Shown one piece after another: positions 5,085 through 61,623 of a stretch of 64,000 nt of DNA (its first letter is position 1; every line of letters begins with the position of its first letter). Location: the NCBI RefSeq assembly GCF_015644585.1, contig NZ_JADOBI010000002.1:620001-684000 (forward strand), written 5' to 3'. Below the pieces are notes generated by a model. That model had not been told where the DNA came from. It worked only from the letters and a program-made list of their open reading frames with translations, and made no database searches. The position numbers and the translations under genes are program-made. Source of the stretch: Rahnella laticis (lineage in GTDB: Bacteria > Pseudomonadota > Gammaproteobacteria > Enterobacterales > Enterobacteriaceae).

Positions 5085-5146
5085 TTTGTAGGAATTCGAT
5101 CATGTTCAGCACCCGATCCGGAGATTTCGCCGAATTTGGTGCTGGG

Positions 5147-5695: not shown

Positions 5696-5775
5696 GGAGT
5701 TTGCTCGTTAATATAAAAGACAATTCATCCGTTATATCAAAGTGTTATTCATTGTGAAACCGTTTCCGTATCAAT

Positions 5776-5807
5776 AAAAAAGCCGGACAAGGTTTCCCTG
5801 TCCGGCC
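5776..5807 (-). terminator. Rho-independent terminator after the second MCP
   Basis: On the minus strand, GCCGGACA, a 9-nt loop, TGTCCGGC and a run of six T's (complement of 5776-5781). It lies about 40 bp past the stop of the MCP at 5845. Confidence 0.88.
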
Positions 5808-5844
5808 TGATTAATCACAATTTCCGATCAGTCCGCTGCCGGGC

Positions 5845-7392
5845 TCAGGCGTTCGCCAGCCTGAACGCAGACACCGACCGGGTCAGATGAAGCACCTGCT
5901 CTTCCAGAGAAGCCGCCGCCGCCGCCGATTCCTGCACCAGCGCCGCATTCTGCTGGGTCACGCCGTCAATTTCTGTCACGGCCTGCTCAATCTGACTGAT
6001 CCCCCTGCTTTGCTCATCGGACGCCGTCGAAATATGTTCCATCAGAACATCGACCTGCGTAACCGACGAAATGATTGCCGAAATAGATTCTCCGGTACGG
6101 GAAACCTGATCCGACCCTTCCTTTATATTGGCAACCGATTCAGAAATCAGACTTTCGATTTCTTTTGCCGCCACCGCACTTCGTTGCGCGAGACTGCGCA
6201 CTTCGCTGGCGACCACTGCAAATCCGCGACCCTGTTCGCCGGCGCGTGCGGCTTCAACCGCGGCATTCAGCGCCAGAATATTGGTCTGGAAAGCAATGCT
6301 GTTGATGACGCCCGTAATGTCTTCGATCTTTTTGGAGCTGCTGTTAATGCGCCCCATTGTTCCGATCACATCCTGCGCCACCTTTTCACCTGCGCGGGCA
6401 TTTTTTACCGCTTCGCGCGTCAGACCGCTGGCCCGGCTGACGTTTTCGGTATTTTGCTTAACCGTCGCGCCCAGCTCTTCCATGCTGGCGGCAGTTTGTG
6501 TCAGCGCCGCGGCCTGTTGTTCAGTACGCGAGGCCAGATCGATATTGCCTGCGGAAATTTCCTGCGACGCGTGCGCAACGGTATGGCTGGTGTCACGTAC
6601 CTGCCCGATAATTTGGGTCAGGGACTGGCGCATATGTTCCATCGACTGCATCAGTTCTTCAATTTCACTGCGGGAACTGTTTTTAAACGGTACCGGCGTA
6701 TCGAGATAACCTTCTGCAATTTTGCGGCAATGATCGCGGGAGCTCAGCAGCGGAGTCAGAACGAAGCGCTTGAGTAATAACAACACGCCAATAATGATGA
6801 TCAGGAACAGCAAACCAAACGCAATCGTCAGCCCGATACCAAACTTAAAATTGTCCTGCGCGTCGCTGTTGAGATTTCTGGCGTACTGCTCATGCAGCGC
6901 CAGCACTTTATCGAGCACCACTTCGTACTGATGATCAAGCTGAACTACCGCCGGGATCCGCGCTTTGAACTGCGCCTGATCGCCCGCTTTCGCCGCATCA
7001 ATCAACGGCTCGATCCCGTTCTGACGATAGTTCTGATAAGCCGTGCGGTAAGCCTCCGCCAGTGCATTTTCGCCCGGTAATTTTGGCGCATTAATATATG
7101 CCTGGAATGCGGCGTCCGCTTTTCCCATCACTTCACTGACGCCGTCCAGGGAAGTAGCAGACGGCTGGCCGCCGTTGTTTTCAATCTCCTTCATATATTC
7201 CATCACGCGAACACGCGAGGTACGGCTGTGGTTGATCGGGTCAATGATGGAAAGCACCACGCGGATTTCTTTATTCACGTCATCCAGAGACTGGTTGCTC
7301 TGCGTCAGCAACCAGACGTTTGAAATCATACTGGTAAAAAAGAGAGTAAAAAGAACAACTAAAACAAGCAAAGAAGACTTTTTAAGCGACAT
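5845..7392 (-). CDS. Methyl-accepting chemotaxis protein (Tar/Tsr architecture)
   Basis: Transmembrane chemoreceptor of 515 residues. TM1 spans roughly residues 7-29. A periplasmic four-helix ligand-binding domain follows, with a Tar/Tsr-like segment ([15 protein letters not shown]), where Arg residues bind amino-acid ligands in Tar/Tsr. TM2 ([14 protein letters not shown]), HAMP and the cytoplasmic signalling hairpin ([33 protein letters not shown]) come next. The C-terminus ([10 protein letters not shown]) lacks the NWETF-type tail, so it probably relies on other receptors for efficient methylation. An in-frame ATG at 7461 is rejected because it lies upstream of the sigma-28 promoter at 7425-7451. 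The ligand is unknown. Confidence 0.92.
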
Positions 7393-47017: not shown

Positions 47018-48442
47018 ATGTTTGGTCTTGATGCGCTAGAACTGGCCCGGATCCAGTTTGCGTTCACCGTCTCTTTTCACATCATTTTCCCCGCAATCAC
47101 AATCGGGCTTGCCAGTTTTCTGGCAGTTCTGGAAGGCATGTGGCTGAAAACGAAGAAAGAGGCTTACCGCGACCTGTATCATTTCTGGTCGAAAATTTTT
47201 GCCGTGAACTTTGGTATGGGCGTGGTCTCCGGCCTGGTGATGGCCTACCAGTTCGGCACCAACTGGAGCATGTTCTCCTCGTTCGCCGGAAGCATTACCG
47301 GCCCGCTGCTGACCTATGAAGTGTTAACCGCGTTCTTCCTCGAAGCCGGTTTCCTGGGCGTGATGCTCTTCGGCTGGAACCGCGTCGGCCCCGGTCTGCA
47401 CTTCTTCTCCACCTGCATGGTGGCGCTCGGTACGCTGATGTCCACCTTCTGGATCCTCGCGTCCAACAGCTGGATGCAGACACCGCAGGGCTACGAGATT
47501 GTTAACAATCTGGTCGTGCCGGTCAGCTGGATGAAAATCATCTTCAACCCGTCTTTCCCGTTCCGTCTGATGCACATGACCACCGCGGCCTTCCTGGCGT
47601 CGGCGTTCTTCGTGGGTTCTGCGGCGGCCTGGCATTTACTGCGCGGGCGAGATACCCCGGCAATCCGCACCATGCTGTCGATGGCGATGTGGATGGCGCT
47701 GATTGTCTCCCCGATTCAGGCATTTTTGGGCGATGCACACGGCCTGAACACCCTGAAATATCAGCCGGCTAAAATCGCGGCCATCGAAGGTCACTGGGAA
47801 AATAAAGACAATAAACCGACGCCGCTGGTGCTGATCGGTTACCCGGATATGAACCGCGAAGAAACACGCTACGCGATTGAAATCCCGTATCTCGGCAGCC
47901 TGATCCTGACGCACAGCCTGACGCATCAAATCCCGGCGCTGAAATCCTTCCCGAAAGAAGATCGTCCGAACTCGTCCGTCATTTTCTACACCTTCCGCAT
48001 CATGGCCGGTCTGGGCATGCTGATGATTTTACTGGGTGTGCTGAGCCTGATCCTGCGTCGTGGCGGCAAAATGTATACCTCTAAAGCGTTCCTGCGCTTT
48101 GCTTTCCTGATGGGGCCTTCCGGTCTGCTGGCGCTCCTGGCGGGTTGGATCACCACGGAAATGGGGCGTCAGCCCTGGGTCGTTTACGGCCTGCTGCGCA
48201 CCAAAGATGCGGTATCGAACCATAACGTTCTCCAGATGAGCGTCAGCCTGATCCTGTTCATCGTGATTTACTGCTCCGTATTTGGCGTGGGTTACGGCTA
48301 CATGATGCGTCTGATCCGCAAAGGTCCGCAGGCGCACGAAGGCGAAAGCGTAGACCACGGTGGTCCGGGCCAGCACCGTACGCCAGCGCGTCCGCTGTCT
48401 GCTATTTCGGAATCACTGTCCGACGACTCTAAGGGAGCTTGA
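47018..48442 (+). CDS. cioA: Cytochrome bd-type quinol oxidase subunit I (CIO type)
   Basis: Quinol-oxidising, haem-bearing subunit of an inner-membrane bd oxidase. It has 474 residues, shorter than E. coli CydA (522) because the Q-loop lacks the long insertion, as in cyanide-insensitive oxidases. Visible features are His21 in TVSFHIIFPA, FGTNWSMFS and the conserved GWITTEMGRQPW. About nine membrane helices are apparent. It is followed at once by cioB and a DUF2474 gene, the layout of CIO operons. Confidence 0.93.
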   Translation: MFGLDALELARIQFAFTVSFHIIFPAITIGLASFLAVLEGMWLKTKKEAYRDLYHFWSKIFAVNFGMGVVSGLVMAYQFGTNWSMFSSFAGSITGPLLTYEVLTAFFLEAGFLGVMLFGWNRVGPGLHFFSTCMVALGTLMSTFWILASNSWMQTPQGYEIVNNLVVPVSWMKIIFNPSFPFRLMHMTTAAFLASAFFVGSAAAWHLLRGRDTPAIRTMLSMAMWMALIVSPIQAFLGDAHGLNTLKYQPAKIAAIEGHWENKDNKPTPLVLIGYPDMNREETRYAIEIPYLGSLILTHSLTHQIPALKSFPKEDRPNSSVIFYTFRIMAGLGMLMILLGVLSLILRRGGKMYTSKAFLRFAFLMGPSGLLALLAGWITTEMGRQPWVVYGLLRTKDAVSNHNVLQMSVSLILFIVIYCSVFGVGYGYMMRLIRKGPQAHEGESVDHGGPGQHRTPARPLSAISESLSDDSKGA

Positions 48443-48444
48443 TA

Positions 48445-49452
48445 ATGGGTATCGACTTACCGCTGATCTGGTTTTTGATCATCATCTTCGGCGTGATGAT
48501 GTATGTGGTGATGGACGGCTTCGACCTGGGCATCGGTCTGCTGTTCCCGCTGGTGAAAAAAGAGCACGAGCGCGACGTGATGATGAACACCGTTGCGCCG
48601 GTCTGGGACGGCAACGAAACCTGGCTGGTGCTGGGCGGTGCGGCGCTGTACGGCGCATTCCCGCTGGCGTATTCGGTGATTCTGGATGCGCTGTCCATCC
48701 CGCTGACCCTGATGTTGTTCGGTCTGATTTTCCGTGGCGTGGCGTTTGAATTTCGTTTCAAAGCCAGCCCGGCCAAGCGCCATGTGTGGGATAAATCCTT
48801 CATCTGGGGATCGGTTATCGCGACCTTCTGTCAGGGCGTGGTTCTGGGCGCCGTCATCAATGGTATTCCTGTGGTTAACCGCACGTATGCCGGTGGCGCG
48901 CTGGACTGGCTGACGCCGTTCACCCTGTTCTGCGGGTTCGCGCTGGTCGTGGCGTATGCCCTGCTCGGCTGCACCTGGCTCATCATGAAAACCGAAGGCG
49001 AATTGCAGGAAGCGATGCACAAAATCGCTAAACCTCTGCTGGTGGTTTTCCTGCTGGTGACGCTGGCAGTCAGCCTGTGGACACCGCTGACGCACAGCGA
49101 TATCGCCACCCGCTGGTTCACGCGCCCTAACCTTTACTGGTTCCTGCCGGTGCCGGTTCTGGTGGTATTAGTGTCTGCGTGGATGTTCCGTGCCATCAGC
49201 AAAAATGCGCATCACGCGCCGTTCCTGCTGACGCTGGCGCTGGTGTTCCTGGGCTATACCGGTCTGGGGATCAGCATCTGGCCGAACATCATTCCGCCGT
49301 CCATTTCTATCTGGGAAGCGGCGTCACCGCCACAAAGCCAGGGCTTCATTCTGGTGGGCGCGCTGTTCATCATCCCGATCATTCTGGTGTACACCTTCTG
49401 GAGCTACTACGTGTTCCGCGGAAAAGTGACGCCGGATCAGGGTTATCACTGA
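48445..49452 (+). CDS. cioB: Cytochrome bd-type quinol oxidase subunit II
   Basis: 335-residue membrane subunit pairing with CioA. It starts at ATG 48445 behind AAGGGAG. MGIDLPLIWFLIIIFGVMMYVVMDGFDLGIGLLFP, followed by NTVAPVWDGNETWLVLGG, is diagnostic of the CydB family. The C-terminal half (IWPNIIPPSISIWEAASPPQSQGFILVGALFIIPIILVYTFWSYYVFRGKV) is typical. Two bases separate it from cioA. Confidence 0.94.
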   Translation: MGIDLPLIWFLIIIFGVMMYVVMDGFDLGIGLLFPLVKKEHERDVMMNTVAPVWDGNETWLVLGGAALYGAFPLAYSVILDALSIPLTLMLFGLIFRGVAFEFRFKASPAKRHVWDKSFIWGSVIATFCQGVVLGAVINGIPVVNRTYAGGALDWLTPFTLFCGFALVVAYALLGCTWLIMKTEGELQEAMHKIAKPLLVVFLLVTLAVSLWTPLTHSDIATRWFTRPNLYWFLPVPVLVVLVSAWMFRAISKNAHHAPFLLTLALVFLGYTGLGISIWPNIIPPSISIWEAASPPQSQGFILVGALFIIPIILVYTFWSYYVFRGKVTPDQGYH

Positions 49453-49662: not shown

Positions 49663-50244
49663 TTATTTCTTCAACACCAATTCCACGAAATCACAGATAT
49701 CTTCCATGGCTTCCTGCCTGACCTCTGCTGAGGGCATGACGATCAGCTGATCGGCGTAGCCGTTGAGCATCGCGGAAAGCTGGCGGGTAACACGTGCGGC
49801 GTTGGTGGATCGAAATATCCCCGCTTCAGTGCCTGCGCTGATGATTTCAGCCAGCAAATCCAGCCATTTTCTCACCATCAGCTGCGCCAGCGCGGCGTAA
49901 GCCTCGTTGTGCGCCGCCAGTTGCCACAGCGAACCGTAAAGTCGCCAGATGTCACCCTGCGTGTCCGGCAGATAACTGTTTACCAGCGTGTGGAGTTTTT
50001 CCTGCGGCGGCAGCGCCACGATTTCTGCGGTGAACTCCTTGAGCTCCGCCAGCATTACCTCCGTCAGCGCTTCGATACACAGCGTCTGCCAGTCGGGAAA
50101 GTAGTGATAAATATGACTGCGCGAGATCCCGACGTATTCCGTCAGTTCGCGCGTCGTCACTTTCTCAATCCCCTTTTCGATAAAGAGGCTGATTGCGCCG
50201 TCGAGGATTTTCGCCCTCAACGCTTCCCGATTTTCTTTCATCAT
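49663..50244 (-). CDS. TetR family repressor of the adjacent efflux pump
   Basis: 193 residues from ATG 50244 (AGGA upstream; the longer frame to 50268 is less likely). The N-terminal HTH (KILDGAISLFIEKGIEKVTTRELTEYVGISRSHIYHYFPDWQTL) is a clear TetR domain, with a C-terminal ligand-binding helical domain. It lies 43 bp downstream of the MFS gene on the same strand, so the two form one operon. Two matching palindromes upstream of the MFS gene are its likely operators, which would make it self-regulating. Confidence 0.9.
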   Translation of the reverse strand: MMKENREALRAKILDGAISLFIEKGIEKVTTRELTEYVGISRSHIYHYFPDWQTLCIEALTEVMLAELKEFTAEIVALPPQEKLHTLVNSYLPDTQGDIWRLYGSLWQLAAHNEAYAALAQLMVRKWLDLLAEIISAGTEAGIFRSTNAARVTRQLSAMLNGYADQLIVMPSAEVRQEAMEDICDFVELVLKK

Positions 50245-50287
50245 CAATCCTGTGCTGGCATTGAGCAACCGCTCAGGCCGCAGTTTA

Positions 50288-51784
50288 TCAGGAAGACTGG
50301 CGCACGCCCACCGGCTTACGCAGGACGATTTTGAGCACCACCACGGTGGCGATCACCAGCGTGGCGGCAGAAATCAGGACTGCCAGAAACGCCTGATCAA
50401 ACGCCGTACGCGCCAGTTCGCTGATTAACGTCGCATGCTCCGGGCTGAGATGGCTGGCGATATTCAGCGCTTCATCGAGGCTGTCATACGCGCCGTCGCC
50501 GGTCACAATACCGTCCGGCAGCATAAGGCTGCGGCTGTACACCGCCGTCATCAGGCCGCCCAGCAACGTCACACCCAGCACGCCGCCCATTTCCCATGAC
50601 ACGTCTTCAATCGCTGCGACCATCCCGGCTTTTTCTTCCGGGGCGTTCAGCATGATGGAGGTCGAGGCCGCCGTCACCGCGCCGCCAAGGCCGAAACCTA
50701 AAATAAACAGACTGATGAGCTGCATCGCGGTGCCGCCTTCAAACAGCAGCGCGTGGCTGACAATTCCCGCGGCGGAAAGCGCGAAACCGCCGAGCATAAT
50801 TTTACGGACGCCGTATTTTGGCATCAGCATTCCGGCCAGCGGCGATGCCAGCGCGGAGGCTACCGGAATAGGCAAAATAAACATCGCGGCCATAAATGGT
50901 GTCAGCCCGAGCACCAGTTGCAACCGCTGGCTCAGCACCAGTTCGATGCCGATCAGCGCAATCATTGAGGTGATCGCCACGCCCACGCCGCAGGCAAAAG
51001 CGCGGTTGCGGAACAGCGAAAAATCGATCATCGGCTGCACGGCGCGTTTTTGCCTTCTGGCGAACAGCCCCAGAAACAGTACGCCTGCAAAGGCCGGGAA
51101 CAACACGCCCGCCCATGAAGAGTTCATATTGCTCAGCTCTTTCAGCGCATAAATCACGCCGACCAGCCCGAGCATCACCATCGCAGAACCGGTGAAATCA
51201 CACGGACGCTCCGGGTTGCCTTTGCCGCGCGGGATCAGCGCCAGCGCACAAGGGAATACGGCCAGCACAATTGGCACGTTGATCAGGAACACAGAGCCCC
51301 ACCAGAAATATTCCAGCAACACGCCGCCAATCACCGGCCCGAGCGCCGCCGCGCCTGACGCCACCGCCGACCAGATACCAATCGCCAGCGCACGTTCGCG
51401 CTCATTGGTAAACACATGGCGCACAATCGCCAGCGTCGCAGGCATCATCATGGCCGCGCCAATCGCCAGAAACACGCGGGATGCGATCAGCCATTCTGCG
51501 GACGGCGCAAAAGCCGCGCACAGCGACGCCAGCGCAAACACCGGCAGGCCGCTCATAAACAGATTTTTATGCCCGAGACGGTCACTCAGCATACCCGCGC
51601 CGGGAAGCAGCCCGGCGACGACCAGCGGATACGCATTCACAATCCATAATTTTTCGGATGACGACGCCCCCAGCGCCAGCGTCAGACGCGGCAGCGCCGT
51701 GTAAAGCACCGTCATATCAATGATGATCAGGAAAAGGGTACTGGTGACAATGGCGAGGATCAGCCAGCGGTTTTGGACGAACAT
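50288..51784 (-). CDS. DHA2-type MFS multidrug efflux transporter (SmvA/QacA-like)
   Basis: 498 residues from ATG 51784 (GAGG upstream) with about 14 membrane helices, the DHA2 drug:H+ antiporter topology. The first helix carries the IDMTVLYTALPRLT pattern (family D1 motif, V-D-x-T-V-x-x-x-A-x-P), motif A appears as GMLSDRLGHKN, and motif C as SAVASGAAALGPVIGGVLLEYFWWGSVFLINVP. Closest by eye to SmvA/QacA pumps for quaternary ammonium compounds and dyes. An in-frame start at 51811 would place the start inside the first operator, so the shorter start is preferred. Confidence 0.88.
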   Translation of the reverse strand: MFVQNRWLILAIVTSTLFLIIIDMTVLYTALPRLTLALGASSSEKLWIVNAYPLVVAGLLPGAGMLSDRLGHKNLFMSGLPVFALASLCAAFAPSAEWLIASRVFLAIGAAMMMPATLAIVRHVFTNERERALAIGIWSAVASGAAALGPVIGGVLLEYFWWGSVFLINVPIVLAVFPCALALIPRGKGNPERPCDFTGSAMVMLGLVGVIYALKELSNMNSSWAGVLFPAFAGVLFLGLFARRQKRAVQPMIDFSLFRNRAFACGVGVAITSMIALIGIELVLSQRLQLVLGLTPFMAAMFILPIPVASALASPLAGMLMPKYGVRKIMLGGFALSAAGIVSHALLFEGGTAMQLISLFILGFGLGGAVTAASTSIMLNAPEEKAGMVAAIEDVSWEMGGVLGVTLLGGLMTAVYSRSLMLPDGIVTGDGAYDSLDEALNIASHLSPEHATLISELARTAFDQAFLAVLISAATLVIATVVVLKIVLRKPVGVRQSS

Positions 51785-51803
51785 ATACAGCCTCAGAAAG
51801 TTT

Positions 51804-51819
51804 TTGAGCACTTGCTCAA
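51804..51819. promoter_or_regulatory. TetR operator 1
   Basis: TTGAGCA-CT-TGCTCAA, a perfect 7-bp-arm palindrome 20 bp upstream of the MFS start. Confidence 0.8.
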
Positions 51820-51832
51820 GAGCGAAAGGTAC

Positions 51833-51848
51833 TTGAGCGGGCGCTCAA
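51833..51848. promoter_or_regulatory. TetR operator 2
   Basis: TTGAGCG-GG-CGCTCAA, the same palindrome type as operator 1, centred 29 bp further upstream (TTGAGCR-N2-YGCTCAA for both). Two sites on roughly the same helix face region suggest cooperative repression of the efflux operon. Confidence 0.8.
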
Positions 51849-51924
51849 AATCAAGCGAAGCCAGCGTAATGGTTGAGGATCGGTTGACACACCGGCGGGC
51901 AGAAACGCAGAACTCAGCGGCAAG

Positions 51925-51947
51925 AAAAAGCCCACCGGAAGGTGGGC
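51925..51947 (-). terminator. Terminator of the peptide ABC transporter operon
   Basis: On the minus strand GCCCACC-TTCC-GGTGGGC followed by TTTTTCTTG, about 60 bp past the binding-protein stop. Confidence 0.85.
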
Positions 51948-52005
51948 AAAAGGGGTAAACAGACTTTTATCTCAGCTTTCTTATTATTTCCCCGGTGTGG
52001 CGAAA

Positions 52006-53520
52006 TTACTCTTTAACAGTGTCTTCCAGCGTGAAACGGCCCAGCGGGTTCTGATGGAAATCTTTGATATTTTTACGTGTCACGTTGCGGTACGGGCTGT
52101 AATACAAATCTATCCAGTTCACGTCCGCTTTAGCCATTTTCTGTAAATCGATATACATCTGCTGGCGTTTTGCCGGATCCATTTCCACGCGGGCGGCGGC
52201 CACCAGCGCTTTCACTTTATCGTTGTGATAACGCGTCATGTAGTTGTTGTTGGAATCATGTCCCAGCACAAACGTGGTTTTCTGATCGGGATCGAGGATG
52301 TCATTCGTCCAGTACATCACCGAAATGTCGTAATCGCCCGCGACTAACATGTCCCAGCTCTGGCTCGGATCCACTTTTTGCAGACTGGCCGTAATGCCCG
52401 CTTTTGCCAGCTGTTGTTGCAGCAGAACGGCGATTTGCTCGTCCACTTCATCCCCGGCGTTCACCAGATATTTCAGCGTCAGATTTTTCACGCCCGCCGC
52501 TGCCAGCAGCTGTTTGGCTTTCTCCGGGTCATAAGGGCGTTGTAAGTTACCGGCGTAGTGATACAACGCGCCGTCAGGAATATAGGAATTGGCGATTTTG
52601 CCGTAGCCGAACGTCACGGTGTCGATAATCGACTTTTTGTCGATGGCGAAATCCAGCGCCTGCCGGACTTCAACTTTGCCCAGATCGCCGTGTGAATGGT
52701 TAATCAGCAAGTGGTCTTCTCGCGTAGAAGTGTCCAGTTCGACAGCCAGTTTCGGGTCTTTCTGCAATGAGGAAATGCGTGAGAACGGAATCGACAGCGC
52801 CGCATCGATTTCGCCCGCCTGCACTTTGAGCATGCGGGTATTGTCGTCCGGCAGCGTCAGCCACTCGACGCCATCAAGCTTCACCTTCGCGGCATCCCAG
52901 TAATACGGGTTTTTGACCAGCTCGACTTTCTCGCCACGCGTCCACTCTTTCACGCTGAATGCGCCCGATCCCACCGGATGTTCGGCAAAATCATCCGCGC
53001 CCTGTTTGGTCAGCGCCGCCTGTGAAATCACCGACGCATTGGGCAGCGCCAGCTGGGAAAGAAACGCTGCCGACGGCGTTTTCAGCGTGATAACCAGCGT
53101 GTGCGCATCGTCCGCTTTCAGCGTATCAATAATGCTGTACGAATCTTTCCACAGTGAACCGGCATCGTCGCGGATACGCGTCAGGCTGAACACCGCATCC
53201 GAAGCCGTGACCGGCGTGCCGTCTGAGAATTTTGCCTCGCGCATTTTCAGCGTATACGTTTTGCCGTCCGGCGAAATCGTCCAGCTTTCCGCCAGCCCCG
53301 GCAGCAGTTTGGTGCCGGTATTGTCCACGCGAACCAGCGGATCAAACACATTCGAGAACACCCAGTTATCGGCGTTTTGCGCCGATTTGATCGGGTCAAA
53401 CGTCGTGCTGTCCTCACGACGTCCGATGGTCAGAACCCCGGCCGCCTGCGCCATTTCGCTGACCAGGCTCAACGCCAGCAGCACCCCGGCGGCCACAACG
53501 TTAAAATGCTTTTGCTTCAT
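52006..53520 (-). CDS. Periplasmic peptide-binding protein of ABC transporter (SBP family 5)
   Basis: 504-residue solute-binding protein with a Sec signal peptide (MKQKHFNVVAAGVLLALSLVSEMAQA). Family 5 features are DPIKSAQNADNWVFSNVFDPLVRVD, PGLAESWTISPDGKTYTLKMREAKFSDGTPVTASDAVFSL and VRQALDFAIDKKSIIDTVTFGYGKIA. It is the last gene of a five-gene minus-strand operon that diverges from a LuxR solo. In Pseudomonas the comparable AapF protein is needed for the plant-derived signal, so this protein may import a signal as well as peptides. That link is inference. Confidence 0.9.
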   Translation of the reverse strand: MKQKHFNVVAAGVLLALSLVSEMAQAAGVLTIGRREDSTTFDPIKSAQNADNWVFSNVFDPLVRVDNTGTKLLPGLAESWTISPDGKTYTLKMREAKFSDGTPVTASDAVFSLTRIRDDAGSLWKDSYSIIDTLKADDAHTLVITLKTPSAAFLSQLALPNASVISQAALTKQGADDFAEHPVGSGAFSVKEWTRGEKVELVKNPYYWDAAKVKLDGVEWLTLPDDNTRMLKVQAGEIDAALSIPFSRISSLQKDPKLAVELDTSTREDHLLINHSHGDLGKVEVRQALDFAIDKKSIIDTVTFGYGKIANSYIPDGALYHYAGNLQRPYDPEKAKQLLAAAGVKNLTLKYLVNAGDEVDEQIAVLLQQQLAKAGITASLQKVDPSQSWDMLVAGDYDISVMYWTNDILDPDQKTTFVLGHDSNNNYMTRYHNDKVKALVAAARVEMDPAKRQQMYIDLQKMAKADVNWIDLYYSPYRNVTRKNIKDFHQNPLGRFTLEDTVKE

Positions 53521-53521
53521 G

Positions 53522-54565
53522 TCACATTCCTTCAGTCATCGGAAAAATCCTTTCGCTACCGGGCGCATCAAGCACACAGGCGAAAGCATGGTCGGCAATA
53601 TGCCGGGTTTCGGGTGCCGCGCCCTGCCTGCACGCAGGAATCGCACGGGCACAGCGTGGATGAAAAGCGCAGCCCGCAGGCAGCGAAACCGGGCTGGGCG
53701 GCTCGCCTTGTAACGGGTTCTCCGGCAGCGGGCGGTCGGGGTCAATTTCGGGGATAGCCGCCACCAGCGCGGCAGTGTAAGGATGGCGCGGCGTAGTAAA
53801 GACCGTCTGCGTCGGGCCGCTTTCAACAATCCGCCCCAGATACATCACCGCCACGCGGTCGCAGAGACGCCGCACAATCGCCAGATCGTGCGCGATAAAC
53901 AAAATTGCCAGCCCCATGCTCTCGCGCAGATCCATCAGCAAATTGATGATTTGGGCCTGAATCGACACGTCGAGCGCGGCGACGCATTCATCGGCGACAA
54001 TCAGCCGTGGCTCAATCGCCAGCGCGCGGGCAATTCCGGCGCGCTGGCACTGCCCGCCACTCAGCGCCTGTGGTCTCCGCGACGCATGTTCCGCGCTCAG
54101 GCCGACCAGCGTCAGCAGTTCGTTAACCCGCACCGGGATCGCCGCTTTCGCGACTTTCTGGTGTACACGCAGCACTTCACCAATGCTCTGGCCCAGCGTC
54201 TGACGCGGATTCAGTGAGGAAAACGGATCCTGAAAAATCATTGCCGTTTGCTGACGAAGCCGGGCAATATCCGGTTTCACGCCGCCGGTAATCAGCTGCC
54301 CGTTAAAGCGCACACGCCCTGCACTGGCATTTTCCAGCTGCAACATCGCGCGCCCCAGCGTGCTTTTTCCGCTGCCCGATTCGCCCACCAGCCCCAGCGT
54401 TTCTCCGGCATTGATGTACATCGACACACCGTTTACCGCCTGCACAACGCGCTTTTTACGCCCCAGCCCGCCGGATACCGGAAACGTCACCGACAAATCT
54501 TCGGCTTCCAGCAGCGGGTAAGGCCGCGGATCCGGCGCAGCAGTCCGGTCAGAAAGTGGATTCAT
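53522..54565 (-). CDS. Peptide ABC transporter ATPase (DppF/OppF type)
   Basis: 347 residues. Walker A GESGSGKST, signature LSGGQCQRAGIARAL and Walker B LIVADECVAALDVS are present (Cys-Val replaces the common Pro-Thr, PTSALD). The C-terminal oligopeptide_HPY Cys motif (GCAFHPRCARAIPAC) is typical of Dpp/Opp ATPases. The ATG follows GGGAGGG. It overlaps the upstream ATPase gene by 17 bp. Confidence 0.92.
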   Translation of the reverse strand: MNPLSDRTAAPDPRPYPLLEAEDLSVTFPVSGGLGRKKRVVQAVNGVSMYINAGETLGLVGESGSGKSTLGRAMLQLENASAGRVRFNGQLITGGVKPDIARLRQQTAMIFQDPFSSLNPRQTLGQSIGEVLRVHQKVAKAAIPVRVNELLTLVGLSAEHASRRPQALSGGQCQRAGIARALAIEPRLIVADECVAALDVSIQAQIINLLMDLRESMGLAILFIAHDLAIVRRLCDRVAVMYLGRIVESGPTQTVFTTPRHPYTAALVAAIPEIDPDRPLPENPLQGEPPSPVSLPAGCAFHPRCARAIPACRQGAAPETRHIADHAFACVLDAPGSERIFPMTEGM

Positions 54566-55556
54566 TTTCCCTCCCGGATATCACCGGACTGAGAACCCGC
54601 AAAGGGTGATGGCAGGCGGCGACGTGGCTGCGGGCAAACGCAGCGGTCTGCATCGCGGGCTGAAGGTCATGGCACTGCGCCGTGGCGTGTGAACAACGCG
54701 GATGAAAACGGCAGCCGGTCGGGAAACGCGCCGCAACCGGTGGCTGGCCGGGCAACGTGATCAGCCGCCCCGCGCCGCCTTCGCTGGCGGGCTGGCAGTC
54801 AATCAGGCCGCGGGTATAAGGATGCAGCGCCTGCGCCAGTACGTGGCGTTTTTCGCCGGTTTCACACAAGCGACCGCCGTACATCACCGCGATGCGGTCG
54901 CAGGTTTGTGCTACCACGCCGAGATCGTGAGTAATGAGAATAATGGCGATACCCAGCCTGTCGCGCAGATCGCAAAGCAGCCGTAAAATCTGCATTTGTA
55001 CGGTGACGTCCAGCGCCGTAGTCGGTTCGTCGGCAATCAGAATTTTTGGCTCGCAGGCCAGCGCCACGGCGATCATCGCGCGCTGACGCATACCACCGGA
55101 AAACTCATGGGGATAGTTGTCCACGCGACGCTGCGGATCGGGAATGCCCACCTGCCGCAGCCACTCCACGGCCTGACGCTGTGCCTCACGGCTGCTCGCC
55201 CCAAAATGCAGGCGGCGGCTTTCTGCAATCTGCTGCCCGATGGTCATCACCGGGTTCAGATGGCTGGCCGGGTTCTGGAAAATCATGCCAATTTCCCGCC
55301 CGCGAATGGCCGTCATGCGTTTATCGCTGAGCGTCAGTAAATCGGTGTCATTCAGGCGGATTTCTCCGGCGCGGATGTTCAGCCCTTCGCCCGGCAACAG
55401 GCGCATCATCGCACGGCAGCTCAGCGTTTTTCCGGAGCCACTTTCACCCACCAGACCGAGAATTTCACCGGCACTGAGCGTAAGGGAAAGCTTATCCACC
55501 AGCGCCACGCCCTGCCGGTCTTCAATGGTTAAACCGCGAACCTGCAACAGCGTCAT
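54549..55556 (-). CDS. Peptide ABC transporter ATPase (DppD/OppD type)
   Basis: 335 residues from ATG 55556, which overlaps the permease stop (ATGA) and has GGGGGAG upstream. Walker A GESGSGKTL, signature EFSGGMRQRAMIAVAL, Walker B ILIADEPTTALDV and the Cys-rich tail GCRFHPRCSHATAQC are all present. It pairs with the following ATPase to drive peptide uptake. Confidence 0.93.
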   Translation of the reverse strand: MTLLQVRGLTIEDRQGVALVDKLSLTLSAGEILGLVGESGSGKTLSCRAMMRLLPGEGLNIRAGEIRLNDTDLLTLSDKRMTAIRGREIGMIFQNPASHLNPVMTIGQQIAESRRLHFGASSREAQRQAVEWLRQVGIPDPQRRVDNYPHEFSGGMRQRAMIAVALACEPKILIADEPTTALDVTVQMQILRLLCDLRDRLGIAIILITHDLGVVAQTCDRIAVMYGGRLCETGEKRHVLAQALHPYTRGLIDCQPASEGGAGRLITLPGQPPVAARFPTGCRFHPRCSHATAQCHDLQPAMQTAAFARSHVAACHHPLRVLSPVISGRENESTF

Positions 55557-56413
55557 GGGCGCTCCCCCAGTTTGTCGCCTAAACCGTCGGCCAGCAGGCT
55601 GAAACTCATCGCCAGCATCACAATCGCCAGGCCCGGAAACGTGGTTATCCACCAGGCGGTGGTGATAAAACTTTGCCCTTCAGCGACCATCACGCCCCAT
55701 TCGGCCAGCGGGGGCTGAACGCCTAAGCCGAGGTAGCTCACCGACGCGCCGCTAAGCAAAACCAGAACGCAATCGGACATCGAAAACACCAGCGAACTGG
55801 TCAGCGCGTTGGGTAAAAGATGCAAAAGCAAAATGCGCGGATGGCTGTAACCCAGGCTGCGCGCGGCCAGAATAAAATCCCGGTGTTTAAGCGTCAGCAC
55901 CTGCGAGCGTACCAGCCGGGCGTAAGACACCCAGCCGACCATCGCCATCGCGATATAAAAACTGCTCAACCCCGGCCCGAGAATGGCGATGATCGAGAGC
56001 ATCAGCACCAGAAATGGAAACGCCAGCACCACATCGATAACGCGCATGAAAAACGTATCCACCGCACCGCCGAGGTACCCGGAAAACGCACCAATCAACG
56101 TGCCAAAGGTGAACGGAAAGATGACGCCGATAATGCAGATTTGCAGATCAATCCGCGCGCCCCACATCACGCGGGAAAGAATGTCGCGGCCAAAATTATC
56201 AGTGCCAAACGGGTGCGCAAAAGTTGGCGGCGACAGCGTCACAGAAGCATCCTGCGCAATCGGGCCGAACGGGGCAATCCACGGGGAAAACAGCGCAATC
56301 AGCACCCACGCGCTCAGCATCAGAATACCCAGCCGCAGCGCCTGCTGACGCGGCAACCAACGCAGGTGAAAGCTGCCCAACCGCTGCGTGGCTATTTTTT
56401 CGGTCATGCTCAT
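55553..56413 (-). CDS. Peptide ABC transporter permease (DppC type)
   Basis: 286-residue inner-membrane permease with an N-terminal helix and five to six further helices. The HPFGTDNFGRDILSRVMWGARIDLQI block and the EAA loop region (AARSLGYSHPRILLLHLLPN) are characteristic of DppC/OppC. It overlaps the upstream permease gene by four bases. Confidence 0.92.
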   Translation of the reverse strand: MSMTEKIATQRLGSFHLRWLPRQQALRLGILMLSAWVLIALFSPWIAPFGPIAQDASVTLSPPTFAHPFGTDNFGRDILSRVMWGARIDLQICIIGVIFPFTFGTLIGAFSGYLGGAVDTFFMRVIDVVLAFPFLVLMLSIIAILGPGLSSFYIAMAMVGWVSYARLVRSQVLTLKHRDFILAARSLGYSHPRILLLHLLPNALTSSLVFSMSDCVLVLLSGASVSYLGLGVQPPLAEWGVMVAEGQSFITTAWWITTFPGLAIVMLAMSFSLLADGLGDKLGERP

Positions 56414-57348
56414 AGCTTTACCCTCGGATCTAACGCCACCGTCAGCAAATCAGCCACCAGATTGACGGCCACCGTCGCCAGCGCAAACACCAAAACCACG
56501 CCCTGCACCACCATGTAATCGCGGCTGATAATGGCTTTAACCAGCAACTGTCCCATGCCTGGAATGGCAAAAACGCTTTCAATCACCACCGTGCTGCCAA
56601 TCAGCCAGCCGATATTTACCGCCAGCAGATTGACCGTCGGCACCAGCGAGTTGGGCATGACGTGCCGCCAGAAAATCCGGTTCTCGTTCTGCCCGCGCGC
56701 CCTGGCTGCGGTAACGTAATCGTTCTGCAATTCCATCAATAAACTGGCGCGCAGGTTGCGGGTCAGCACCGCCGACAACGCCAGCGCCACGGTCAGACAA
56801 GGCAAAAACAAATGATGTAAACGCTCGCCGAAATCGCTGCCGTAGCCCGACACCGGAAACCAGCCGAGCGACAGGCTGAACAGCAAAATCATCATGATCG
56901 CCAGCCAGAACGCCGGTAATCCGAGGCCGACGGTAGAAAGCAGGCGGATCATCTGATCTGCCAGCCGCCCGCGGTTTCGCGCCGCCGTTGCCGCCAGTGG
57001 CACGGTAAACAGCATCGCCAGCATCACGCTGCCCAGCACCAGATACAGCGTCGGTTCGATGCGCGACATGATCAGTTTCAGCGTATCCACGCGGTAAATC
57101 AGCGACTTTCCCATTTCGCCGTGCAACAGGTTGCGCAAGAAGTAGAGATATTGCTGCCAGACCGGCAGATCCAGTCCGTACTGCGCACGAATCCGGGCGA
57201 TGGCTTCCGGCGTGCTGCGTACGCCCAGCAGGATCCTCGCCGGATCGCCGGGAATGGCGCGCACCATGACAAACGTCAGGATGCTGATCCCCAGCAAAAC
57301 CGGCAGCAGTTGCAGCGGGCGCCAGAGCAAAAATCGGTAACGGTGCAT
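56410..57348 (-). CDS. Peptide ABC transporter permease (DppB type)
   Basis: 312-residue inner-membrane permease, first gene of the transporter operon. The N-terminus (LLWRPLQLLPVLLGISILTFVMVRAIPGDPARILLG) and the EAA loop (TAARARGQNENRIFWRHVMPNSLVP) identify the DppB/OppB family. It reads away from the LuxR solo, and the shared 228-bp region between them carries a motif also present before pip. Confidence 0.92.
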   Translation of the reverse strand: MHRYRFLLWRPLQLLPVLLGISILTFVMVRAIPGDPARILLGVRSTPEAIARIRAQYGLDLPVWQQYLYFLRNLLHGEMGKSLIYRVDTLKLIMSRIEPTLYLVLGSVMLAMLFTVPLAATAARNRGRLADQMIRLLSTVGLGLPAFWLAIMMILLFSLSLGWFPVSGYGSDFGERLHHLFLPCLTVALALSAVLTRNLRASLLMELQNDYVTAARARGQNENRIFWRHVMPNSLVPTVNLLAVNIGWLIGSTVVIESVFAIPGMGQLLVKAIISRDYMVVQGVVLVFALATVAVNLVADLLTVALDPRVKL

Positions 57349-57576
57349 GGCAATCCTCTTAATGACTGTTTTTGGTGCAGAGCAGGCGTCATTCCCCCTG
57401 TGGCTCTACGTTAGCCTCAGCAAAACCTCACCGGTAGTTAGCAAAAATACTAGGTTTGTCCCGTCGGCGATTTGGCACTGCGATTGCATAACTTTTTCTT
57501 AACAACCGGTCAGCAGCAAAATCGGTGCCCGATCAGCACATTCATGGCGGAAAGAGCAACTTGCGGAGATGAATTC
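57349..57576. promoter_or_regulatory. Divergent control region between the ABC operon and luxR solo
   Basis: 228 bp without a gene, holding both divergent promoters. The motif TAGTTAGCAAAAATACTAGG at 57435-57454 lies 87 bp from dppB and 123 bp from luxR. On the minus strand it matches, at 14 of 20 positions, a sequence in front of pip. Confidence 0.7.
57435..57454 (-). promoter_or_regulatory. Candidate LuxR-solo binding motif, copy 1
   Basis: Minus strand CCTAGTATTTTTGCTAACTA. It contains the imperfect dyad TAGT-N10-ACTA and matches copy 2 at 58344-58363 in 14 of 20 positions (CCTA..-TTTTT-CTA-CT). Confidence 0.45.
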
Positions 57577-58332
57577 ATGAAACTCGCGGTGAAAGAAAGT
57601 GCAGCGCCATTACGGGAAACCACCGTGGACGGCGCGTTTAACCAGCTCTTTGCGCAGACGTCGCGTCTGGGGTTCGACGCCCTGATCTACGATTACACGC
57701 CGGTACCGCGATCGCTGGAAGGCGAGCTGATCACGCCCTCTTTGCTGCGGATGTGTAACGTGCCGGGCGACATGCAAAAGCTGTGGCTGGAAAGTGGCTA
57801 CTATCAGGTGGATCCGGTGCAGCATTACGCGCTGGAAAGCTGCGCGCCGTTTGTGTGGTCCTATCAGCGGCCGGACAACACGTCCCTGCAAAACCGTCTG
57901 AGCGACCTCAACAAACCGGTCACGCATTACATGTGTGATAACAATATGCCGTGCGGCGCGACCGTCCCCCTGCATTTGCCGAACGGCGGGTTTGTCACCG
58001 TGACCGGCATACACACCAGCGCGGGGCATGAACTGGATATTCACGATGTGCTGGCGGAGCTGAGCCTGCTGGCGCTGACGTTTCAGGAGTGCGTCTTTCC
58101 GCTGTTCGACGCCAGCGTGCTGACCTGCAAACATGTGCGGCTGAGCAAGCGCGAGCGCGAATGTCTGGCCTGGGCGGCGGAGGGGTTAACGGCCAAAGAG
58201 ATCGCCCGCAAACTTAACCGCTCGGTGGCCACCGTCACGCTGCACCTCAACACTGCTGGCCGTAAACTGGGGGCCAGCAACCGCGTCCAGGCGGTGGTTC
58301 GCGCGCTGCATTACCGCCTGCTGGACAGCTGA
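57577..58332 (+). CDS. pipR: LuxR solo of the plant-responsive PipR/OryR type
   Basis: 251-residue quorum-sensing-type regulator with an N-terminal autoinducer-binding domain (about 20-165) and a C-terminal LuxR HTH (LSKRERECLAWAAEGLTAKEIARKLNRSVATVTLHL). Counting back from the invariant Asp-Pro (D79-P80, TraR D70-P71), the positions of TraR Trp57 and Tyr61 are Met66 and Trp70, while TraR Trp85 is kept as Trp94. Those two changes define the plant-associated LuxR solos OryR, PsoR, XccR and PipR, which respond to plant compounds rather than AHLs. There is no luxI in the window. ATG 57577 follows GGAG. It is flanked by a peptide ABC operon and pip, as in the pip/aap locus of Pseudomonas. Confidence 0.88.
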   Translation: MKLAVKESAAPLRETTVDGAFNQLFAQTSRLGFDALIYDYTPVPRSLEGELITPSLLRMCNVPGDMQKLWLESGYYQVDPVQHYALESCAPFVWSYQRPDNTSLQNRLSDLNKPVTHYMCDNNMPCGATVPLHLPNGGFVTVTGIHTSAGHELDIHDVLAELSLLALTFQECVFPLFDASVLTCKHVRLSKRERECLAWAAEGLTAKEIARKLNRSVATVTLHLNTAGRKLGASNRVQAVVRALHYRLLDS

Positions 58333-58343
58333 CCGCCCGATTT

Positions 58344-58363
58344 CCTATCTTTTTTACTAGCTG
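58344..58363 (+). promoter_or_regulatory. Candidate LuxR-solo binding motif, copy 2
   Basis: CCTATCTTTTTTACTAGCTG, 58 bp upstream of pip. It is the partner of the motif at 57435-57454. Confidence 0.45.
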
Positions 58364-58420
58364 TTCAGCACCGCCCCGATGTTTACCCTGAGAAGATTAT
58401 TCACCGACAGGGGAAACAAA

Positions 58421-59311
58421 ATGGTCAACATCACTGAAGGCTACGCGCCGCTTCAGGAATACCAGACCTGGTACCGCATCAGCGGCGATCTCAGCAGCGG
58501 TAAGACTCCGCTGGTGATCGCCCACGGCGGACCGGGCTGCACGCACGATTACGTGGACGCCTTTCGCGACATCGCCGAAACGGGTCGCGCGGTCATTCAT
58601 TACGATCAGGTAGGCAATGGTCGTTCGACGCATCTTCCCGATAAACCGGCCGGTTTCTGGCAACCGTCGCTGTTTCTGGCAGAGCTGGACAATCTCCTGC
58701 GCCATCTCGGCATCGAAGAAAACTACGCCCTGCTCGGGCAATCCTGGGGCGGAATGTTAGGTGCCGAACACGCCGTTACGCAGCCCCCCGGCCTGAAGGC
58801 ACTGATCATCGCCAACTCACCGGCCTCGATGGAACTCTGGCTGCAAGCCGCCGCCCGCCTGCGCAGCGAACTTCCTGCCGGTGTGCAGGAAACCCTGCTC
58901 GCCCACGAACAGGCCGGAACGATCGACAGCAAAGAATACAAAGCCGCCTCGCAGGTTTTCTACGCGCGCCACGTTTGCCGTCTCGACCCGTGGCCGGAAG
59001 AGGTAAAACGCACCTTCTCCGCGATGGACGCCGATCCGACGGTTTATCACGCCATGAACGGCCCGACCGAATTTCACGTCATCGGCAGCATGAAAGACTG
59101 GACGATCATCGACCGTCTGCCGGCGATCAACGTACCAGTCTTGCTGATTTCCGGCCGCTACGACGAAGCCGCCCCCGAAGTGGTTCAGCCCTTTGCCGAC
59201 ATGATCAAAGACGTCCGGTGGGTGATTTTTGAGAATTCGAGCCACATGCCGCATGTGGAAGAACGGGGAGCGTGTATGGAATGCATTCAGGAGTTTCTGG
59301 AAGGGGTTTGA
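58421..59311 (+). CDS. pip: Proline iminopeptidase
   Basis: 296-residue alpha/beta-hydrolase that removes N-terminal proline from peptides. The oxyanion motif HGGPGC (GGPG at 36-39), nucleophile GQSWGG (Ser108), an Asp in [10 protein letters not shown] and a His in [10 protein letters not shown] complete the catalytic set. The ATG at 58421 follows AGGGGAA; an in-frame ATG at 58379 is less likely. pip genes beside LuxR solos are a hallmark of plant-responsive regulators, which activate them. Lacking a signal peptide, it probably acts in the cytoplasm on imported peptides. Confidence 0.92.
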
Positions 59312-59325
59312 TTTGGCTTTGGGTT

Positions 59326-59428
59326 GCCGCCCAAACAGCTTTGAAGCAGCAGCTTGGTGTAAATTTCGGTTTTTCAATTGCAGTGATCACTCAAGGTCAA
59401 GACCTTGGGCTCGCCGCCCAAACTGGCC
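59326..59428. repeat. Left arm of a large imperfect inverted repeat
   Basis: CCGCCCAAACAGCTTTG...AAATTTCGGTTTTTCAATTG...GATCACTCA (59328-59394) is the imperfect reverse complement of 60029-60095. A second block here, CCTTGGGCTCGCCGCCCAAACT (59403-59424), also matches the right arm in inverse orientation. Confidence 0.85.
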
Positions 59429-60028
59429 CAAAGGGCGCGTTAACGCGCGCGCCCTCTGGACACCCGCGCTTTTTAACTGCGCGCTGCCGCTAGTAAAGTA
59501 TGTTTCAGCAACTCCGGCTATTGCCGCAAACGCCGCCGCTGCGCGGTTCTCTCGCCTCGGGTTCGAACCTGCTCGAAAAAAAGACTCTCGCTGTTTCTCA
59601 CCACTCACTCGACGTCGTTTTGAAAGCGGCCAAGGACTATGTAATTCGGAAGATTTATGCAGGCTGATTTTGAATTTCTCCTTCCCCTCTCACGAGGGGA
59701 AGGTCGGGATGGGGTGTTGGTTTTAGCGGCTCAGTTGCCTGCTAAACCCCCTCCCGGCCTCCCCCTTCGCAGGGGGAGGAGCAAACCAATCCATTGTTAT
59801 ATCGTGAAGAAGCCTCCAGCCGCTTTCAGAAAGCTTGCTGAATGAGTGTTTCGAGACCAAAAGGCTCGAAGACCGAAATGAAGGTACCGCGCAGCGGCAA
59901 GTTTTCGCGGCAATAGCTGCGGTACCTGAAACATAGCCAGCGAGCGATAGCGCGGGTTGTAAAAAGACGCGGAGATTCCAAAGAGGCCCCGTCCTGGGCC
60001 TCTTTGGTCGGTTTCGGCGCGAGCCGCT
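59429..60028. other. Non-coding interior of the repeat complex
   Basis: No convincing gene; the open frames here are in biased, hairpin-rich sequence. Two G/C-rich hairpins are clear: CCTTCCCCTC-TCAC-GAGGGGAAGG (59680-59703) and CCTCCCCCT-TCGC-AGGGGGAGG (59758-59779). They have the look of REP-type intergenic elements. A further hairpin, AAAGAGGCCC...GGGCCTCTTT (near 59978-60005), resembles a terminator. Confidence 0.7.
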
Positions 60029-60111
60029 GAGCGATCACTGCAAGTGAAAAACCGAAATTTACGCCAAGCTGCCGTTTGAGAGCAGTTTGGGCGGCGAGCC
60101 CAAGGTGTTGA
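60029..60111. repeat. Right arm of the large imperfect inverted repeat
   Basis: GCGATCACTGCAAGTGAAAAACCGAAATTTACGCC...CAGTTTGGGCGGCGAGCCCAAGGTG, the inverted partner of 59326-59428, about 600 bp away. It ends 24 bp before the msrA stop. Confidence 0.85.
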
Positions 60112-60134
60112 CTTTAAAGCCAGAGCGTCAAGCT

Positions 60135-60872
60135 CTACTTTGTCACCAGAACCGGTTTCTCCCGGTAATCCCCCGGAAAAACTTTCTCTAAATCTTTAAT
60201 CTTCGGCAGATCGTTCACCACAATGTACGGATAGTCCGGATTATCATTCAGGAAGTTCTGGTGATAAGCCTCCGCCGGATAGAAATGCGCATTGCTTTCC
60301 ACCTTCGTCACCAGCGGATCGCTGTAGCTTTTGCTGGTGTTCAGTTGCGCGATATACGCTGTCGCCACTTCCGCCTGCGCCGCATTCATCGGGAACACTG
60401 CCGAGCGGTACTGGCTGCCGGTGTCCGGCCCCTGCCGGTTCAGTTCGGTCGGGTTATGCCCCACGGAGAAGAAGATGTGCAGCAGTTCGCCGTAGGTGAT
60501 TTGCGTCGGGTCAAACGTCACTTTGACCGATTCCGCATGCCCGGTATCGCCGCCGCTGACCTGCTCGTAGCTGGCGGTTTGCGCGTCGCCGCCCGCGTAT
60601 CCGGACACCGCGCTGGTCACGCCTTTCACATGCTGGAATACGCCCTGAATTCCCCAGAAGCAGCCACCGGCAAACACGGCCGTTTCACTGTGTGATGTGC
60701 CCGCCGGTTCGTCATGTGCCGGTGCGGGGATCACCACCGCCGTTTCCGCGCCGCCCCACGACCAGGCACTATTCTGAAAGACAAAGGCAGACGCCAGCAC
60801 CAGACCGGCGATCACGCTGATATTGCGTAACGACTTCACTCTTTTTTCGGATGTTTTCACAGTTGTTTTCAT
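60135..60872 (-). CDS. msrA: Exported peptide-methionine (S)-S-oxide reductase MsrA
   Basis: 245 residues. The catalytic motif is AGGCFWG with Cys71, and the domain continues with GYAGG and YRSAVFP. The N-terminal 40 residues (RNISVIAGLVLASAFVFQNSAWS) form a signal peptide or signal anchor, so the enzyme should act in the periplasm, unlike the usual cytoplasmic MsrA. It lies 16 bp downstream of msrB on the same strand, forming an envelope methionine-repair operon. Confidence 0.92.
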   Translation of the reverse strand: MKTTVKTSEKRVKSLRNISVIAGLVLASAFVFQNSAWSWGGAETAVVIPAPAHDEPAGTSHSETAVFAGGCFWGIQGVFQHVKGVTSAVSGYAGGDAQTASYEQVSGGDTGHAESVKVTFDPTQITYGELLHIFFSVGHNPTELNRQGPDTGSQYRSAVFPMNAAQAEVATAYIAQLNTSKSYSDPLVTKVESNAHFYPAEAYHQNFLNDNPDYPYIVVNDLPKIKDLEKVFPGDYREKPVLVTK

Positions 60873-60888
60873 AGCAGCCTCGCGGGAA

Positions 60889-61398
60889 TTAAACTTTTGG
60901 ACTGAACGTCATCGCCAGCCCGTTCATGCAATAACGCAGACCGGTGGGCTGCGGGCCGTCGTCAAATACGTGGCCAAGATGGCCGCCGCAGCGACGGCAA
61001 TGCACTTCGTCGCGAACCATACCCAGTGTCGTATCCCGGCTGGTCAGCGCCGCGTCAGGCAGCGGTTTCCAGAAACTCGGCCAGCCGGTGTGGCTGTCAA
61101 ATTTGGTCGCCGAAGAGAATAAAGGCAGCGCGCAACCCGCACAGGCAAACTGCCCTTCGCGATGCTCATTATTGAGCGGGCTGGAATAAGGGCGCTCAGT
61201 ACCGGCTTCACGCAAAACGTAATACTGTGCTTCGCTGAGGCGCTGGTGCCACTGCGCATCGGTCAGTTCAATTTCGAATGTTTCAGTTTTTGCCTGCGCA
61301 TCGGCCTTGCGGGTAAAGACCCCGGGGAAAAGCCCCATCACGGCAATCGCCGAAACGGCGGTGCTGCCTAAGAGGAAATTACGTCTGTTGATCATCAT
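60889..61398 (-). CDS. msrB: Tat-exported peptide-methionine (R)-S-oxide reductase MsrB
   Basis: 169 residues if translated from the ATG pair at 61398/61395. The N-terminus INRRNFLLGSTAVSAIAVMGLFPG is a twin-arginine signal, so the folded, metal-loaded enzyme would be exported. The MsrB domain has two CxxC zinc pairs (CAGC, CRRC), the HLGHVFDDG motif and the catalytic Cys in RYCMNG. An in-frame start at 61476 would bury the Tat motif and is rejected. It precedes msrA in the same operon. Confidence 0.9.
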   Translation of the reverse strand: MMINRRNFLLGSTAVSAIAVMGLFPGVFTRKADAQAKTETFEIELTDAQWHQRLSEAQYYVLREAGTERPYSSPLNNEHREGQFACAGCALPLFSSATKFDSHTGWPSFWKPLPDAALTSRDTTLGMVRDEVHCRRCGGHLGHVFDDGPQPTGLRYCMNGLAMTFSPKV

Positions 61399-61623
61399 CG
61401 TCACCGTTGCGGTAGTTGTCGATGGCATCAGATTACCGGCGGATGTCTTACCGAATCCTCCCGAAAAGTTAACCATTTTGTGATAACTGACGAATTTGAA
61501 TATTCTGGTATCAATTGATTTACATCTAAAACAGGCAGCAGAAACCCGTTGAAGAAGCGTTGATACCAGCCACCTATAATAATCTCCTGCGAATTATCCT
61601 AATACATTAATACCGGTAAAAAC

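Follow-up and report, generated by a model that had tools for sequence, protein, structure and literature searches.

We consider it quite probable that the window analysed here, a stretch of 64,000 nucleotides from Rahnella laticis (positions 620001-684000 of contig C12, which has 693,852 bases in a genome of 5.7 Mb), carries a locus of the PAB LuxR-solo/pip/importer class whose nearest type is PsrR of Kosakonia, and that its LuxR protein activates both pip and the importer. The locus belongs to a known system as one more member, and its layout was known before from related bacteria; what the present analysis adds is a pair of conserved lux-type boxes, one 5′ of pip and the other between luxR and the divergent importer operon. 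The locus also offers a plant-associated genus in which to seek the ligand of enterobacterial PAB LuxR solos.

The gene set proposed by the first-pass annotation, namely a LuxR solo, pip and a five-gene peptide ABC operon in divergent orientation, is real, as confirmed by open reading frames and domain matches (Table 1). The operon runs from oppB through oppC, oppD and oppF to the gene of the solute-binding protein (SBP) on the minus strand, from 57348 down to 52006, divergently from luxR. Pip, scored as the longer ORF, matched NCBIfam TIGR01250 with 262 bits (cut-off 168), and its best solved relative was 7a6g (466 bits). Judging from sequence, ATG 58421 is the more likely start of pip, because the box spacing of 68.5 bases is the same in the window and in 7/7 close relatives, and because pip of pRAHAQ01 is annotated 89 bases past the luxR stop (88 in the window). 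Similarly, oppD probably starts at 55556 rather than 55652, given its sequence and the shorter CDS annotated in pRAHAQ01. The binding protein matched AapF (7kz8) with 763 bits, 332 of 479 aligned residues (69%) being identical, and the next solved relative reached 191 bits.

Table 1. Genes and predicted lux-type boxes of the module (positions within the window)
Feature	Position	Strand	Remarks
Solute-binding protein, AapF orthologue	52006..53520	-	7kz8 match
ABC ATPase, oppF type	53522..54565	-	ORF, domain, locus comparison
ABC ATPase, oppD type	54549..55556	-	mechanical ORF starts 55652
ABC permease, oppC/aapC type	55553..56413	-	ORF, domain, locus comparison
ABC permease, oppB/aapB type	56410..57348	-	ORF, domain, locus comparison
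Second predicted lux-type box	57436..57455	-	luxR/transporter intergenic region; weight matrix
luxR solo, PAB (OryR/PsrR) type, 251 aa	57577..58332	+	Met66, Trp70, Asp79-Pro80, Trp94, Gly127
Predicted lux-type (pip) box	58343..58362	+	core CT-N12-AG 58345-58360; centre 68.5 bases 5′ of ATG 58421
pip, proline iminopeptidase-family alpha/beta hydrolase, 296 aa	58421..59311	+	mechanical ORF starts 58379

The regulator has the features of a PAB LuxR solo, the class to which OryR, XccR, PsoR, NesR, PsrR and PipR are assigned. It carries an autoinducer-binding domain (Autoind_bind, 75.8 bits) and a GerE HTH domain (60.4 bits), adjoins pip, has no luxI alongside (the only LuxI match of the genome lies 187 kb off), and a lux-type box stands 5′ of pip, as judged by sequence match and conservation. 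The protein was aligned with 13 orthologues, and alignment with solved AHL receptors placed Met66 on Trp, Trp70 on Tyr, Asp79-Pro80 on Asp-Pro and Trp94 on Trp, in agreement with the residues read in the first-pass annotation. Its match to the TraR model, spanning LuxR 59-241 and TraR 50-226 with an initial offset of 9, leads to TraR positions 57, 61, 70, 71 and 85, and the PAB pattern is found there: W57M and Y61W, with D70, P71, W85 and G113 retained (TraR numbering). Both Trp57 and Tyr61 of AHL quorum-sensing LuxR proteins are thus absent in the Rahnella protein.

The relatives of the locus were compared in a sample of 78 distinct loci, the best 80 of 144 relatives, to which all counts of loci below refer. 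Thirteen of the 78 (L088-L100) were excluded as HTH-only or distant, leaving 65 PAB-type loci, and no Xanthomonas locus was among the 78. The intact SBP-F-D-C-B order divergent from luxR-pip was found in 46 of the 65, and 6/6 Kosakonia loci besides KO348 had the divergent layout. Among the 19 non-intact loci of these best 80 relatives, 8 had a more distant peptide transporter, 4 (Trabulsiella) had no transporter beside luxR, and 7 were broken, cut at a contig end, or without a downstream pip. For one of the Trabulsiella loci, L048, this covers only 1.5 kb of upstream sequence, and in another, L050, distant transporter homologues lie ~5 kb off on both sides. Of the 46 intact loci, 23 have another peptidase gene, of the aapA type, placed between the importer and the regulator; the other 23, Rahnella and Kosakonia included, lack it. 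In Enterobacter sp. EA-1 (L059), the importer genes match in pieces, and the module seems to be decaying.

The pocket residues were tabulated for 62 loci and the window (63 rows), with the broken or split L059, L076 and L086 excluded. In this table, which like the layout counts is drawn from the best 80 of 144 relatives, the positions of Trp70, Gln82, Trp94, Val115 and Gly127 were invariant, Asp79 was kept in 62/63 rows and Pro80 in 59/63. Position 66 was Met in 53/63 rows and Trp in the remaining 10, which are the Pseudomonas rows. Leu71 was confined to 7/63 rows: the window, five named Rahnella and Hafnia psychrotolerans. The first-pass annotation had ascribed the Met and Trp pair to OryR-like and PipR solos alike; it holds for the OryR/PsrR type and fails for PipR, which is reported to retain the first Trp (PMC4981722), as do 10/10 Pseudomonas rows among these best 80 relatives. 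A PipR-type pocket was therefore rejected for Rahnella. In a tree of 35 LuxR proteins (34 loci and the window), the six included Pseudomonas rows were separated from all others by one branch with support 94/90, and the window clustered with Rahnella and Prodigiosinella (100/98). Two loci labelled as other classes, Rhodoferax sp. OV413 (L055, a betaproteobacterium) and Martelella alba (L047, an alphaproteobacterium), have the enterobacterial module type with 70% LuxR identity each, reflecting either transfer or a mislabelled record.

Systems of this kind have been described before, so the idea that the locus extends the Pseudomonas arrangement to enterobacteria did not hold: the gene set has been published in Kosakonia (PMC7301841) and Dickeya (PMC8860905), and a 2015 survey already placed Rahnella, Klebsiella, Yersinia, Brenneria and Serratia in a W57M/Y61W group with pip or peptide transporter neighbours (PMC4338825). 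This class of solos is named subgroup 0 in one review (PMC10134790). In Kosakonia sp. KO348, psrR is reported with pip and oligopeptide transporter genes, and PsrR, an enterobacterial PAB solo adjoining pip and peptide ABC genes, resembles the Rahnella protein in these respects (PMC7301841). The six other Kosakonia loci among the best 80 of 144 relatives share with Rahnella the divergent arrangement, the lack of aapA and the Met and Trp pair; their LuxR proteins are 71-75% identical to that of Rahnella, and they have Glu, Arg and Cys where Rahnella has Arg58, Gln67 and Leu71. The pipR/pipA and ABC transporter genes of Dickeya zeae MS2, also of the Enterobacterales, are the same gene set by their published description (PMC8860905).

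The PipR/PipA/AapA-F system of Pseudomonas sp. GM79 is like the Rahnella locus in its five-gene importer with AapF, its LuxR solo and its boxed downstream pipA (PMC4981722), and an AapF-type binding protein with a linked ABC importer is indeed present in Rahnella. It differs in that PipR retains Trp57, where Rahnella has Met66, and in that an aapA peptidase gene is described between pipR and aapB (PMC4981722). This gene is missing from the Rahnella locus, and a search of the genome at E <= 1e-10 gave no second member of the aapA family, so the whole Pseudomonas layout once claimed for the window is not there. Xanthomonas OryR and XccR share the W57M and Y61W substitutions and the pip neighbour (PMC10134790, PMC4981722), as well as a CT-N12-AG pip box (PMC4471428), whereas oryR is reported beside an APC transporter gene with no linked ABC importer (PMC4981722).

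The published core of the pip box is CT-N12-AG (PMC4471428). It was present in 51/51 luxR-pip gaps (50 loci and the window, from the best 80 of 144 relatives), where 13.6 were expected from single-base shuffles, although the match in L082 looks like chance, and the core was unchanged in the window and 7/7 close relatives. A weight matrix was then built from 19 de-duplicated pip boxes, excluding those of the Rahnella group, Prodigiosinella, Brenneria, L082 and L085. Across the 64-kb window, it ranked the pip box first (22.8), a second box in the luxR/transporter region next (21.0), and a third site at 12.9, while the maxima on three shuffled windows were 11.2, 14.7 and 18.7. The second box, whose centre lies 97.5 bases 5′ of oppB and about 131 bases 5′ of luxR, was found by the matrix in 47/47 divergent regions (46 loci and the window, from the best 80 of 144 relatives) with scores of 12.3-24.4, a count drawn from related genomes and not from 47 independent tests. 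In none of these regions did any of 200 shuffles equal the second-box score; the box shuffles preserve single-base composition only. Genome-wide, sites with at most two mismatches to either box numbered 2 and 3, against 3 and 5 in a backward control; each count includes the known box itself, which leaves one and two further sites. Since these counts do not exceed the control, the case for the boxes lies in their position and conservation and not in their rarity, and no wider regulon is proposed for the same reason.

Lying between two divergent genes, the second box could have either of them as its target, and it is thus conceivable, though we regard it as unlikely, that it serves autoregulation of luxR rather than control of the transporter. 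The relatives argue for the transporter in three ways. Trabulsiella retains luxR and pip, with a strong pip box (27-29), and has no importer beside luxR; its second box shows decay in three loci and could not be found in the fourth, which an autoregulatory role would not lead one to expect while luxR and pip persist. Three Trabulsiella genomes contained no binding protein closer than 31%, and in the one also searched for the permease the best match was 39%. Because two T. guamensis rows fall with Kosakonia in the tree (support 98/84), this suggests that the Trabulsiella importer was lost, and the loss may have been a single event. Six Aureimonas-type loci among the best 80 of 144 relatives have pip divergent from luxR and a different transporter downstream, and their best box (12-15) lies 5′ of this transporter, on the other side of luxR, again at odds with autoregulation; the pip-side site is weak there, scoring 5.6-11.7 in five and not listed in L080. 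L070 and L087 likewise carry a different transporter; it is preceded by a strong box (24), and pip by a weaker one (14-16). A box thus precedes a distantly related transporter in 8 loci of this sample (L070, L087 and the six Aureimonas-type loci), while in L075, L079 and L081 the boxes are weak or unclear. In the Trabulsiella locus L071, a long ORF (4611-6341) lies 5′ of luxR at the position of the relatives' transporter and resembles, by eye, a portion of a contact-dependent-inhibition protein.

The gene content, the residues, the orthology and both boxes with their conservation are observed; for the ligand, the direction of regulation and the role of Pip we infer the following circuit. The AapF-type binding protein and the ABC importer would carry a small molecule, probably plant-derived or peptide-like, into the cytoplasm, where LuxR, with its pocket lacking Trp57 and Tyr61, would bind this molecule or its product. 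LuxR would then activate two promoters through similar lux-type boxes, that of pip and that of the divergent importer operon. The Pip peptidase would probably trim or destroy the signal, giving negative feedback, and activation of the importer would constitute positive feedback on uptake, an arm assumed for Rahnella by analogy. In GM79, the response is reported to depend on the importer, pipA is activated by PipR, and peptidase mutants show a stronger response (PMC4981722). That a solo controls its own importer in Rahnella is predicted by the paired-box pattern, and the same report holds hints of such control: a possible PipR site before aapA, whose promoter responds weakly to PipR, and a 12-fold rise, when the regulator XagR was overexpressed, of a transporter gene located next to an OryR-type gene (cited in PMC4981722). 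Counting against the circuit, the Kosakonia experiments reported neither an inducer of pip nor a dependence of pip on PsrR (PMC7301841). More tentatively, we suggest that the LuxR solo acts as a two-sided uptake switch in which specificity is filtered by the conserved importer and its AapF pocket, that the receptor pocket has meanwhile diverged between lineages, and that Rahnella would therefore read a ligand other than HEHEAA, brought in by an importer of the same kind; we hold this possible, though short of probable.

The signal itself could be the one known from Pseudomonas, with AapF importing HEHEAA, the ethanolamine-derived plant cue, and LuxR responding to it as a functional equivalent of PipR. 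The 69% identity of the AapF orthologue speaks for this, as does the tighter conservation of the importer than of the receptor: in the Pseudomonas loci L060-L069 (n=10, from the best 80 of 144 relatives), binding-protein identity is 70-75% and LuxR identity 50-56%. We nevertheless find this equivalence rather doubtful and treat HEHEAA as one candidate ligand. Neither HEHEAA, ethanolamine nor rice root macerate was reported to induce pip in Kosakonia KO348 (PMC7301841), and the binding proteins of the six Kosakonia loci other than KO348 (best 80 of 144 relatives) are 80-81% identical to that of Rahnella. The receptor pocket differs as well, with Met where PipR and the 10 Pseudomonas rows have Trp, and with Gln67 and Leu71 against His and Cys. 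The first-pass interpretation was right in kind, wrong on novelty and on the PipR label, and probably wrong on the signal that it assumed.

A broader reading takes LuxR as a nutrient sensor of imported small peptides from any source, without dedicated plant sensing. PipR is reported to respond to peptone and to the tripeptide SHS (PMC4981722), and relatives occur in records without an evident plant source, for example a Klebsiella variicola plasmid from human faeces. However, SHS was described as active only at about 1 mM or more (PMC4981722), root endosphere colonisation is reported to fall on psrR loss (PMC7301841), and a review table (PMC10134790) assigns plant signals to members of the class, PsrR included, even though no inducer was found in its own paper. 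On balance, we see this reading as somewhat unlikely. That the protein is itself an AHL receptor, or the partner of the resident LuxI, is highly improbable. The one LuxI match of the genome is on the same contig as the window, but it adjoins another LuxR, and the LuxI partnership was rejected because of this neighbour and the distance of 187 kb; moreover, Trp57 and Tyr61 are both substituted in the Rahnella LuxR, and OryR and PipR were silent to the AHLs reported as tested (PMC4981722, PMC4471428). The distant luxI and the other luxR, at 489084-490380 of the contig (loci L001 and L101), are probably a complete AHL quorum-sensing pair.

The nearest named relatives of the regulator among the best 80 of 144 are Rahnella, with 98% identity to Rahnella sp. 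AA and 92-94% to R. ecdela, R. perminowiae, R. inusitata and R. rivi. The regulator was present in 8/14 Rahnella genomes searched and, as an orthologue of at least 65% identity, in 15/198 genomes of a wider family sample, the window's own genome being counted in both; stop codons interrupted the orthologue in 1 of those 15. No luxR match was obtained at the DNA level in an E. coli collection. The regulator was also found on 11 Rahnella plasmid records of 0.5-0.7 Mb (91.6-94% identity), and the gene order of the module in pRAHAQ01 is identical to that in the window. Two other stretches of the window are largely matched by Rahnella plasmid records, no record reaching 80% of either. Because these records match both the regulator and the other stretches, the contig is most likely that Rahnella plasmid replicon, as far as sequence comparison indicates.

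Scans for promoter-like and terminator-like sites in 57330-58440 yielded a single site of each type, against expectations of 0.4 and 1.7 respectively, and an Rfam scan of 51000-61000 matched no family. On the importer side, a cydA/cydB-type oxidase pair adjoins the module at 47018-49452, and two such pairs flank the module in pRAHAQ01. The span 49663-51811 holds a TetR-type regulator gene together with a gene for an SmvA-like efflux pump, which scores 434 bits, under the family cut-off of 701; TetR and MFS genes are at the equivalent position in pRAHAQ01. On the pip side, adjacent msrA-type and msrB-type genes were assigned by eye at 60135-61476. Between these and pip lies a gene-free element of ~800 bases (59317-60115), which has no Rfam match and folds into a single giant hairpin (z -19 vs 20 shuffles). 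By sequence, it is an abundant Rahnella repeat: at least 161 matching pieces were found in the same genome (40 of 124 candidates scored), with about 40 genomic sites among the matches listed, and further pieces occur on 12 Rahnella plasmid records, together with one short Aeromonas match. The element is also present at both ends of the contig.
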